The position numbers were made by a program, and so were the translations under genes. A DNA stretch of 64,000 nt from Chrysophaeum taylorii (lineage: Eukaryota > Sar > Pelagophyceae > Pelagomonadales > Pelagomonadaceae), in contig JAQMWT010000524.1 in assembly GCA_029834535.1 (NCBI GenBank), positions 372,001-436,000 of the forward strand, written 5' to 3'. The notes under the pieces are model-generated. The model was not told the origin of the DNA. It ran no database searches and worked only from the letters and a program-made list of their open reading frames with translations. Of the stretch, positions 45,749 to 50,345 are shown piece after piece; position 1 is the first letter of the stretch; each line of letters begins with the position of its first letter.

Positions 45749-48700
45749 TCATTTTGGTAAGGCTGCGCCGGGAACATAGGCCTGCGGATCAAGGCCGAAG
45801 TCGCGCAGCTCGCGTTTGAGGCCGGCAATCAGGTCGACACGTACTCCGTCGTCGTCCGCCAGCGTCAGTAGGAAGCTGCGAAGGTCCCGGTCGCGGCGGG
45901 CGCGCTGTGCGCGTTCGAACGTCTCGCGCGGACGCGAGGGAAACAAACCTTGACCGTGTGCACAGGTTTGGACGTGCTGGTGCGCATCGGTGCCGCAGTC
46001 AGCGAGGCAGTACGCGCAGAAACAGCATGCGCAGTCCGCGCGATGGCAAGTCAGCGCGAAGCAGCCATCGAAGCCCTGCGTACCATCAAGTACCTCGGCG
46101 AAGGCCGCACCGCAGCGGGGACACGCAAGCGTGAGGATGCGCTCGATGACGTGAGCCCTTGTCTCGCGTGCCCGTCGTTCGGCATCTGACAATGCCGCGA
46201 TACGCCGAGCTTCGGCCTGGATGCGCCTATCGAATCCACGTTCGAGGTCGGCCGCGATCTGCCTTTCTGCCAGCCGCTGCTTGGCGGTGAAGTACGCTGC
46301 AAAAACGTGCTGGGGTACGTGCGATGCAACTGCCGTGTCTGTGTAACAATCGTGGCAACTCATCCCAACGCACTGAATCCGCCCGCCACACCTCTCGAGG
46401 GTGTCGAGGTCGCCGCACCCCGCACCGACGCACTGGATCCGCCCAGCGCGCGGCTCAAATGTGCCCAGGTTCTCGGTGTCCGTGTTGGCGCGGACGTGGC
46501 CAGCCAGGCACTCGTCACACACGAAGTGACCATTCATACACTCCACACCAACACCGACATCATCGTTGCACACAATGCACGTCCGAAGCGGTGTTTTAAC
46601 CGGGAGAGCTCGGTCATCCAGAATTCTTTCGCTTGCCACCAATAAAGGCGAGACTTCAAGGGCGCTTGCCCTTGGCCGCTCGTCGGCGGCAGCGAGGCAC
46701 GCGCACAAGACCGTCGCCAGCGCGTCGTCCCTTCGGCGCTTGGCTGTTTGACACGCCAAGTCTGCTTGATCATTGAGCACGCGCTGCGCCGTATCATCGT
46801 CAAACGCGAGCGCTATGGCCACGCAGATGCCAAACGAAAAAATGTCGGACGCGACCGTCGAGCGCGCTCCAGCTCGCACTTCTGGCGCAATGTATCCTGG
46901 TGTGCCACCACCCACACGCGTAGTTATCGCGATCGATCCGCCATCGAGCGCAGTCCGACTCATGTCGAAGTCGCTCAAGACCACCGACCACGTCCCGCCC
47001 GCCGTGTCGACGAGCGCGTTATCGAGCTTGACATCACCGTGAACCACACCTTTGGCATGGACGTACGAAAGGGCTGCGAGGAGTTGCCGGAGAGCCCGAA
47101 CATGCGTCGTTGCGACGTGACGATGCTCCGCATTCAGGAAGTGCAGTGTTCCCCATTGCGAAACGGCGACCTCGATGTCTCCTTCGTCGATTGTGTTCTC
47201 AGGTCGAGCGAGCCACTGTCGCAACGTGCCTCCAGCGTAAAGCGGGCATTGAAGGAATGCCTCTGCGTCGCCAAACCGAGTATTTTCGACGAAGAACACG
47301 CCTTCCACCTTAACTATGTTCGGATGTGTCAAGCTCATGAGCGTTTCGACCTCGCGCTCCAAGGCCTGCCTTGCTGACGCACCTCGCAGATGGAACTGCT
47401 TCAAGACGCATTCTTTTCCATCATAGCGACACGCGATGACGACATGACGAGAGTCCAGAGGCTCCGAGTGGTCTGGCCATGGGATTCGTTCGTAATCCTG
47501 CGGACTGCGTCCCTGGCGCACGACGCTACGCAGCGCGGGGGACAGGGTGACGATCGTCATGAGCGCATCCTTCAAGTCAAGGCGAAGCTCGGGAAAGTGG
47601 TCTCGAACCAGCTCGACCAGTTTGATAAGCTCGTCCTCAGTTGCGCGTTGCGCGCGATTGTGATCACGGCGGGCCACACGAAAATTTTCTTTCAACAGCT
47701 CAATGTTAATAGAGCGTCCTTCATCTTCGTCTCCAGCATCTTCCAGTTCGCGCTGAGATCTTCGGAGTGTTTTTTTCGCAAATTTCAATCTCTCCTTCGC
47801 TTCATGCCATGGCTTGTCTTTCAGCGCCGCGCTTGAACGGGCAGTGGCGATCTCATCGACCATGCGACGAGCCTCGCGGGTTCGTTCGCGTGCCCGACTC
47901 AAATCCTGCAAGTTGCACTTGCACGCGTCCAGTCGGGCGACCACGGCAATCCGAATTTCGTCGACAGGCAGCAGCACAAATGGATGCGGCCGCGATGACC
48001 AGTGCTTCAGCTCGCGATTGACAGCCTCGAGCGCCGTACAATGCGCGAGCTCCCAGGCACCACATGCTTCCTTCGTGCCTTGGGTCTCACCCACGCCACA
48101 CAACTTTCGCCAGGCATCCGCAAAGGCATCGTCCGTTGCTTCGGTAACGACTCGCGGGTCAGTTTCGTGCTCCCAGTGTTCAAACGCACGCAAGGCTCGA
48201 AGCGCGGGTGTCGAGGCCGACTCGCACGACGGCAACTCTGTTTGAAGGACAGGAGGCGCCTGGAAGTCACGTCGAATCGTCTCGAGAGAAGCTAGAGAAG
48301 TTTCTAGCAGCTGCACTTCGCGCTCGAGAGTGATGCGTTCGCGCCCAAGGTCCGAGCTCGAGTGTGCGTCTTGGAGTGCGATCAATGCTTGGACGTATGC
48401 ATCGCGCGCCTCGTTACGCTGTTCGACAAGCAACTCGATGTCGACACCTCCTTGGTCGGGCGGCGAAAGAGCACGACGAACTGACTCTTGGGCTACGTCG
48501 AGCTTCCCGCGCTCGACACAAGCTTTGCGTCGCAACATCTCAAAGGTGTCCAGCGACACGTATTCGACGGGAAATGTCATATCGGGGTCGGAGCAAGCGG
48601 ACCGGATCCGCGCCAACACCGTGCGCACCGGATCGAGAAGATCGTCATCTCGGTCGGTACCGCCGCGTTCGCCGTTCGCGAGTCTCGCAGCCTTGATTCT

Positions 48701-49819
48701 TTCGGCAGCTCGACGCAGCGCCATCATGCAGGTTGGGGGGCTCGTGTTGTGTTGCTGTGCTCTGTCCGCGCGACGACCTTGGATTATTTTCTTCGAGTCT
48801 GCGACGGTCGTGGTGCCTTCTTCTTGCTCTCGAGCCGGCGGCTCGATAACGAGGATGGAACCAGTGTTGTAAGGGGCGCAGTACAACTTTCCCGCACACT
48901 CCGCGACGCCGATCCACCTCCATACGCCGCGAACGTCGCAGTCGATCGTGCGCGTGGAATCCGCGTTCGCGGGATCGATCGCGAGGATCGAATCTGCGTT
49001 GTACGGCGCGCAATACAGCTTCCCCGAGCACGACGCAATACCCCACCACTTCATTTCACCCCCAACGTCGCATTCGATTGTGCGCGTAACATCTGCATTC
49101 TTCGACGGATCGATCACCAATATCGAACGTGCGTTGCGAGGGGCGCAATACAGCTTGTCATCGCAGGCCGCGATGCCGTTCCACTTGGCCTGGCCTCGAA
49201 CGCCGCCGCCGCAGTCAATTGTGCTCGTGCCATCCGCGTTCGAGGGATCAATCACCAGAACCGAGTTTGCATTGCAAGGCGCGCAGTACAACTTGCCCGC
49301 GCACTCCGCAATCCCACACCACTTCCCGATGCCTCGAACGCCGCAGTCGACGGCGTACGCGGCATCGGCGTTTGAGGGATTGATGACCAGAATCGAATCC
49401 GAGTTGTAGGGAGCGCAGTACAGCTTGCCCTTGCACTGCGCGATTCCGCACCACTTTCCGATGCCGCGAACGCCGCAGTCGATCGCGCGCGTAGCATCCC
49501 CGTTCGCGGGATCGATGACCAAGATCGAATCTGCGTTGCAAGGCGCGCAGTACAGTTTGCCGGCGCACGCCACGATGCCACACCACTTGCCATGGCCTCG
49601 AACACCAGAGTCGATGGTTCGCGTGACCTCCGTATTCGAGGGATCGACTACGAGGACCGAATCTGCGTTCCAAGGCGCGCAGTACACCTTGTCCGCGTAG
49701 GCCGCGATTCCACACCACTTGCCCCCGCCCTGAAGAAGCCCGCAGTCGATGGTGCTAATGGTCTCGGGGGCGTCGTATTTCCGGTCGTCGCGTCGGTTCA
49801 CAGCGTCGCGCATCTTCAT
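45749..49819 (-). CDS. Beta-propeller / coiled-coil / protein kinase / RBR-like zinc-finger protein
   Basis: 1,356 residues in one exon. About 20-330: seven repeats of ~44 residues with consensus KWCGIAxCxGKLYCAPYNxxS then ILVIDPSNAD, which should close a seven-bladed propeller. About 380-790: helical, heptad-rich linker. About 800-1,060: protein kinase with CVLKQF (ATP Lys), EREVETL (helix C Glu), HPNIVKVEG, VVHGDVKLDNAL (HRD changed to HGD, catalytic Asp kept), LSDFDMSR (DFG changed to DFD), GTPGYIAPEV and SDIFSFGI. About 1,080-1,300: Cys/His clusters starting CIVCNDDVGVGVECMNGHFV, two GRIQCVGxxC lines, then CPRCGAAF and FDGCFALTC with CCFCAYCLADCG, like the RING1-IBR-RING2 series of RBR ubiquitin ligases. 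It may couple phosphorylation to ubiquitination in a sensor protein; the role is unknown. Confidence 0.85.
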   Translation of the reverse strand: MKMRDAVNRRDDRKYDAPETISTIDCGLLQGGGKWCGIAAYADKVYCAPWNADSVLVVDPSNTEVTRTIDSGVRGHGKWCGIVACAGKLYCAPCNADSILVIDPANGDATRAIDCGVRGIGKWCGIAQCKGKLYCAPYNSDSILVINPSNADAAYAVDCGVRGIGKWCGIAECAGKLYCAPCNANSVLVIDPSNADGTSTIDCGGGVRGQAKWNGIAACDDKLYCAPRNARSILVIDPSKNADVTRTIECDVGGEMKWWGIASCSGKLYCAPYNADSILAIDPANADSTRTIDCDVRGVWRWIGVAECAGKLYCAPYNTGSILVIEPPAREQEEGTTTVADSKKIIQGRRADRAQQHNTSPPTCMMALRRAAERIKAARLANGERGGTDRDDDLLDPVRTVLARIRSACSDPDMTFPVEYVSLDTFEMLRRKACVERGKLDVAQESVRRALSPPDQGGVDIELLVEQRNEARDAYVQALIALQDAHSSSDLGRERITLEREVQLLETSLASLETIRRDFQAPPVLQTELPSCESASTPALRALRAFEHWEHETDPRVVTEATDDAFADAWRKLCGVGETQGTKEACGAWELAHCTALEAVNRELKHWSSRPHPFVLLPVDEIRIAVVARLDACKCNLQDLSRARERTREARRMVDEIATARSSAALKDKPWHEAKERLKFAKKTLRRSQRELEDAGDEDEGRSINIELLKENFRVARRDHNRAQRATEDELIKLVELVRDHFPELRLDLKDALMTIVTLSPALRSVVRQGRSPQDYERIPWPDHSEPLDSRHVVIACRYDGKECVLKQFHLRGASARQALEREVETLMSLTHPNIVKVEGVFFVENTRFGDAEAFLQCPLYAGGTLRQWLARPENTIDEGDIEVAVSQWGTLHFLNAEHRHVATTHVRALRQLLAALSYVHAKGVVHGDVKLDNALVDTAGGTWSVVLSDFDMSRTALDGGSIAITTRVGGGTPGYIAPEVRAGARSTVASDIFSFGICVAIALAFDDDTAQRVLNDQADLACQTAKRRRDDALATVLCACLAAADERPRASALEVSPLLVASERILDDRALPVKTPLRTCIVCNDDVGVGVECMNGHFVCDECLAGHVRANTDTENLGTFEPRAGRIQCVGAGCGDLDTLERCGGRIQCVGMSCHDCYTDTAVASHVPQHVFAAYFTAKQRLAERQIAADLERGFDRRIQAEARRIAALSDAERRARETRAHVIERILTLACPRCGAAFAEVLDGTQGFDGCFALTCHRADCACCFCAYCLADCGTDAHQHVQTCAHGQGLFPSRPRETFERAQRARRDRDLRSFLLTLADDDGVRVDLIAGLKRELRDFGLDPQAYVPGAALPK

Positions 49820-50211: not shown

Positions 50212-50345
50212 ACTATCTTTCGACCAGCATATTTGCCTCGATATATTTTTTCGCGTGCCGCAAACGAAGGTTATTGTTGTTACTATCTTTCGACCAGCAT
50301 ATTTGCCTCGATATATTTTTTCGCCTGCCGCAAACGAAAGTTATT
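50212..50345. repeat. 70 bp-period tandem duplication
   Basis: 50,212-50,281 is repeated at 50,282-50,345 with few mismatches. Each copy carries CTTTCGACCAGCATATTTGC and ATATATTTTTTCGC. It may be a duplicated promoter-like AT block between the intact gene and the decayed paralogue. Confidence 0.85.

Follow-up and report, generated by a model that had tools for sequence, protein, structure and literature searches.

The window analysed here, a stretch of 64,000 nucleotides from the pelagophyte Chrysophaeum taylorii (contig JAQMWT010000524.1), contains on its reverse strand a single-exon open reading frame of 1356 residues plus the stop codon (45749..49819), in which a predicted seven-bladed propeller, a conserved linker, a protein kinase domain and a zinc module resembling parts of the RBR ubiquitin ligases follow one another. 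The gene is a member of a family with at least seven intact copies, and the sequences give strong evidence for the translation and retention of the entire chain as one unit. Regarding its role, the likeliest reading, to which we give about an even chance, is that the protein belongs to an expanded family of recognition proteins, in which each member would be a single-chain receptor with kinase and ubiquitin-ligase outputs. All the features of the protein described below lie on the same strand as the gene.

The paralogue family

The genome was searched over 70.8 Mb in 697 contigs, and at least seven full-length copies, including the window gene, were found as single open frames of 1297-1453 residues. 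They are located on five contigs (C524 and C349 with two copies each, C551, C202 and C407 with one), and the identity to the window protein is 59-66% for the six sister proteins, whose domain order is unchanged. The copy on C202 has one TAG in the match, its open frame of 1441 residues stopping at the C-terminus and the match continuing beyond it. Further copies contain stops and look decayed (C456, C25/C521 and C309); C25 and C521 gave identical matches and possibly represent two haplotypes.

The mean pairwise dN/dS (ratio of non-synonymous to synonymous substitution rates, by Nei-Gojobori counts) among the seven genes was 0.30 in the propeller, 0.37 in the linker, 0.23 in the kinase and 0.22 in the zinc module, values that are rough because dS is near 1. 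Seven diverged open copies together with dN/dS well below 1 rule out chance, and the conservation of the open frame in all seven argues for one polypeptide. An earlier note on this DNA had described a single-exon gene with exactly these limits and this strand, and its claim that propeller, kinase and ligase-like zinc fingers form one chain is upheld by the seven intact copies.

In the library scan of the window protein, the propeller was recognised by two weak propeller families of Pfam (DUF5074, 1.8e-7, and Glu_cyclase_2, 4.4e-5) and as a YVTN repeat by NCBIfam (9.8e-12), and no RING or IBR model of Pfam or NCBIfam passed its cut-off. No Pfam match to NACHT or NB-ARC was found in this protein or in the six other copies. 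The conserved linker (residues 367-753; 47561..48721) has a mean column identity of 57% and no known domain; it gave no match in Pfam and none in the PDB up to E 1, and is probably helical, the coiled coil named in the earlier note being putative.

On C536 (L065), C238 (L066) and C456 there are several short stretches that match the end of the kinase and the first finger, some of them interrupted by stops. They may be decayed relatives, and neither L065 nor L066 showed a long frame related to the family. A pattern search of viral contigs with the family queries confirmed no relative, and the propeller query gave only one distant match in bacterial and archaeal genomes (26%, in L062, a Cyclobacterium metagenome-assembled genome), which covered the propeller part alone. 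No earlier report of a propeller-kinase-RING1/Rcat fusion was found among the open-access papers listed by the literature searches, which is weak evidence of absence.

Propeller blades and their variation

The propeller occupies residues 18-330 (48830..49768). The earlier note had counted seven repeats of about 44 residues; seven were found, of 44-46 residues each, and structure prediction closed them into the seven-bladed ring that a propeller requires. The model has 28 strands in seven four-stranded blades, the N-terminal strand closing the last blade, with a best predicted local distance difference test score (pLDDT) of 90.1, and Foldseek matched it to many propellers, the substrate receptors of beta-TrCP type being among them.

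We calculated the entropy of the blade positions from 42 of the 49 blades, taken at full unit length and leaving out the last blade of each gene, over 44 columns that were each filled in at least half of the blades. The highest values were those of positions 0 (3.4 bits), 4 (3.36 bits) and 18 (3.25 bits), followed by position 1 (2.7 bits). The remaining positions did not exceed 2.38 bits, and positions 13-17 and 24-25 stayed at or below 0.32 bits; the greater part of the blade scaffold hardly varies. According to the strand limits of the model, positions 0 and 1 belong to the D-A loop, position 4 comes second in strand A and position 18 opens the B-C loop (18-21). In propellers generally, the D-A and B-C loops share one face. 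The available passages of PMC1805685 place both loops of WD propellers on one face. From the entropies, the model strand limits and this standard topology, we infer that the variable positions would lie on one face of the propeller.

The blade comparisons and the selection counts were made with 47 of the 49 blades, since C407-7 and C349p-6 were shifted relative to the fixed blade frame. At the four variable positions 33 synonymous and 102 non-synonymous changes were counted in 23 disjoint pairs of the 47 blades, near saturation, giving an omega (the non-synonymous to synonymous ratio) of 0.82 (p 0.86) versus 0.25 in the core strands.

Between genes, the proportion of synonymous differences (pS) was 0.561 for blades of the same number and 0.571 for blades of different number. 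Within genes it was 0.492, and in C551 0.213, with a minimum of 0.00. Of the 47 blades, 16.5 had their nearest blade within their own gene (permutation mean 5.8, with 0 of 2000 permutations as high), and for 4.5 the nearest blade had the same number versus a permutation mean of 5.9; when C551 was left out, this second count was 5.0 versus 4.8. Clearly, the positional homology of the blades between genes is lost, and a recent homogenisation of blades is clear in C551 only.

This pattern resembles that of HET-D/HET-E, the HNWD proteins of Podospora anserina, which also are encoded by a family of genes and have a propeller sensor whose repeats are similar, exchange of blades and variation in the D-A loop and the B-C turn. 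In the HNWD family the positively selected positions are in the D-A loop and the B-C turn, and inactivated members exist, according to PMC1805685. Nevertheless, the two systems differ, since HNWD proteins combine a NACHT NTPase with WD40 repeats, whereas here the propeller is Vgb/YVTN-like and is followed by a kinase and a zinc module, with no NTPase match. Positive selection was shown there, whereas here omega stands at 0.82 with its p of 0.86. The mean repeat identity is 60% in the window protein and 75% in C551, in both cases below the 85% threshold given in the accessible part of PMC4986451. Regarding the Vgb streptogramin lyase and YVTN propellers themselves, the identity is 12% and no lyase function is implied.

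Kinase domain and zinc module

The kinase domain (residues 753-1072; 46604..47563) is of the non-RD type. Its homology is clear, as Pkinase of Pfam matched it at 3e-22 with 79.7 bits against a cut-off of 31.7, and the PDB profile search placed the MAP kinase kinase-like 9gmp at the top (3.4e-19) and CDPK and CaMK enzymes next. The earlier note had correctly read HGD in place of HRD in the catalytic loop (residues 927-929; 47033..47041), which is found in 7/7 copies, and DFD in place of DFG (residues 950-952; 46964..46972), which is DFD in six copies and DFE in one. It had also stated that the catalytic Lys and Asp survive, and actually Lys807, Asp929, Asn934 and Asp950 are all present; the catalytic Lys, the Asp of HGD, the Asn, the Asp of DFD and the APE motif are invariant in the seven copies. 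The HGD motif is uncommon in this genome without being unique, given that the HGD-form DNA pattern gave 17 matches genome-wide (3 in the reversed control), of which nine fall within the propeller-kinase family or its decayed copies, versus 160 for the HRD-form pattern with CGN codons only (1 in the control). The similarity to mad6, a defence kinase of bacteria, was discarded: it scored 121 bits here versus 259-310 bits for the own-genome control kinases, all eight of which score above the window kinase domain, and therefore it is unspecific.

The zinc module contains a RING1-like finger (residues 1081-1158; 46346..46579), supported by hhalign comparison with the RING1 of four RBR proteins encoded in this genome, and an Rcat/RING2-like finger (residues 1233-1286; 45962..46123), supported by a profile match to parkin 9c5e, by hhalign and by the match of a relative on contig C389 to 1wd2. 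This relative (L039 1414-5850) is a Cys-rich open frame of 1479 residues with a similar RING1/Rcat module, 31% identical, at its C-terminal end. In the second finger, Cys1253 (46061..46063) sits where RBR ligases have their catalytic Cys, its DGC being aligned with GGC, and is invariant; two residues after it there is an Ala in 7/7 copies. In parkin and HHARI a His is found two residues after the catalytic Cys, as part of the Rcat His/Glu catalytic set, in the available text of PMC3940038. Of the RING1-IBR-RING2 series that had been claimed before, the Cys/His clusters hold, being largely invariant in the seven paralogues, and the RING1/RING2 homology holds with modest significance; the IBR is absent, with no match to Pfam IBR over the cut-off in any copy.

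The four RBR proteins come from 11 of 17 loci that were examined, six of which had a pattern match and four of which were aligned (L053 and L054 were dropped), and each hhalign comparison gave a single alignment. The Rcat-to-RING2 comparison with these four proteins gave a P of 4.2e-4 and a probability of 34%; the RING1-to-RING1 comparison, made with the seven paralogues plus the C389 relative, gave a P of 2.8e-6 and a probability of 88%, both with no null control. Against the PDB, up to E 10, the seven-paralogue profile had three matches, namely NDUB10, which is unrelated and helical (1.5), parkin (2.4) and SD01679p (2.4), which we take to be Drosophila parkin. When the C389 relative was added there were seven, six of them to parkin, SD01679p, the Ariadne-1 homolog or ARIH1 and the other to NDUB10 (0.19), the best being the parkin chain 9c5e at E 0.0026. 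The relative alone matched the Ariadne-1 homolog 1wd2 at 3.9e-4, and 10 of its 11 PDB matches up to E 10 were to Ariadne-1/ARIH1, parkin or SD01679p; its matches to Pfam IBR_1 and IBR_2 were at 0.003-0.004, below the cut-offs. The stretch aligned with the RBR structures includes the RING2 catalytic Cys. A Pfam Gin match to the first finger, below the cut-off and in only one of the seven members, was treated as chance. Thus the zinc module is probably derived from an RBR without being a full member of that family, as it has no IBR and carries Ala for His two residues past the putative catalytic Cys.

The window copy has an insert of 20 residues in RING1 (residues 1131-1150; 46370..46429), absent from the six others, in which a repeat of GRIQCVG was seen by eye; no DNA direct repeat of at least 15 was found for it. 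This insert could weaken the zinc site of the window copy.

Proposed function of the family and rival explanations

If the protein is a receptor, the variable propeller face would bind a protein or peptide, the ligand differing from one paralogue to another, and binding would be relayed via the linker to the non-RD kinase, which would phosphorylate its own chain or a partner. Phosphorylation may then release the RING1/Rcat module, which would transfer ubiquitin onto the bound ligand or a partner. Such a protein would work much as if PINK1 and parkin had been fused in cis and given a variable sensor like that of HET-E. In the PINK1-parkin system, as far as the consulted part of PMC5679756 describes it, a kinase and an RBR-type ligase work together, which is a functional analogy, although they are two proteins there and one chain here. 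With RBR ligases such as parkin and ARIH1 the window protein shares the RING1-like and Rcat-like fingers and the Cys at the catalytic place; it differs from them in having neither IBR/BRcat nor the Rcat His/Glu, and in being fused to a kinase and a propeller.

Several results speak against a receptor with these outputs. Not only is the IBR/BRcat missing, with 0 Cys in the stretch of 68-73 residues that separates the RING1-like cluster from the RING2-like one in all seven copies, the His and Glu of the parkin Rcat also have no counterpart in the seven-copy alignment. Taken singly, the matches to E3 ligases are weak, and no null control accompanied the hhalign comparisons. The structure model of kinase plus zinc module was poor (pLDDT 40.5), and this failure leaves the zinc sites without structural support. 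In the kinase, GxGxxG is found in 0/7 copies and the Gly of DFG is also absent. Regarding the propeller, the loops of the other face vary too, though less (2.38 bits at position 32, 2.2 at position 35 and 2.08 at position 10), and the variation may be due to relaxed constraint, because no significant positive selection was detected at the four variable positions. Furthermore, without C551 the count of nearest blades in the same gene drops to 9.8 of 40 versus 5.9 (p 0.054).

That no positive selection was detected also suits a housekeeping kinase/E3, in which the propeller of each paralogue would recognise its own cellular substrate, as beta-TrCP does, and mark it for turnover, the blade variation being ordinary substrate divergence with no immune role. 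The beta-TrCP receptors among the many propellers matched by Foldseek and the age of the paralogues, with a mean dS of about 1, point in the same direction; however, the loss of blade position between genes and the near-identical blades of C551 suggest blade exchange, and the decayed-looking copies suggest turnover of the family. We hold this explanation to be rather unlikely, although it overlaps in mechanism with the receptor, and the probabilities behind our wording do not sum to one. In the same range of doubt is a pseudo-enzyme scaffold, an adaptor with inactive kinase and Rcat that would assemble factors through its zinc fingers. The missing GxGxxG, DFD/DFE for DFG, and the absence of the IBR and of an Rcat His/Glu equivalent are consistent with it, but Lys807, Asp929, Asn934, Asp950 and Cys1253 are invariant in 7/7 copies and constraint is strongest in the kinase and zinc parts. 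That separate genes were read as one open frame, by a chance join or an assembly artefact, is highly improbable: the genome search disregarded introns, which would favour it, but seven copies on five contigs show one unbroken order of parts, conserved linker included, and this already contradicts it.

An immune role for the recognition family is possible by analogy. Many immune receptors (XA21, FLS2, IRAK and RIP) typically have non-RD kinases, in which Gly (or Cys) precedes the catalytic Asp, and serve in recognition, as stated in the available part of PMC2553837. This likeness is a parallel and not a proof. The window protein differs from these receptors in that Pfam matched no leucine-rich repeats in it and in that its nearest solved kinases are the MAP2K-like 9gmp and CDPK/CaMK. 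Less likely than either of the two doubtful alternatives, and speculative, is the more specific proposal of a family of intracellular receptors, other than NLRs and perhaps microalgal, for immunity or allorecognition, in which a blade-shuffling propeller would read non-self, a non-RD kinase would act as the switch and an IBR-less, RBR-derived ligase would ubiquitinate the target, all in one polypeptide.

If true, the receptor would provide a single-chain model of kinase-controlled ubiquitin ligation, for which animals need two proteins (PINK1 and parkin), and a candidate receptor for pathogens or for self/non-self built without the parts usual in NLRs or membrane receptors. The combination of a fixed frame and few variable positions in seven paralogues offers a direct route to mapping propeller ligands.

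Related parts were also seen in other genes. On C315 (L025, L041) adjacent open frames contain a PH domain, a seven-bladed propeller, a KAP NTPase and a second seven-bladed propeller, both propellers being of similar repeat type to that of the window protein. Because the same propeller type is joined there to a KAP NTPase, the propeller looks like a movable sensor, and together with the RING1/Rcat module on C389 this makes sensor and effector look like separable movable units. An open frame of 450 residues on C24, with a seven-bladed propeller and then, by eye, an apparent linker start, is probably a truncated copy. L063 (407-2347) has a distantly related propeller fused to a methyltransferase domain, and an open reading frame on C534 (L040 1-4212), read by eye, has ankyrin-like repeats, a kinase and an apparent nucleotide-binding region.

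In the window protein, the zinc module is followed by a conserved C-terminal tail (residues 1287-1356; 45752..45961) with an invariant Arg/Asp-rich block, partly common to the C389 protein. About 400 bases upstream of the start of the open reading frame there are two direct copies of 64 nucleotides (50212-50345), 97% identical and with a spacing of 70.

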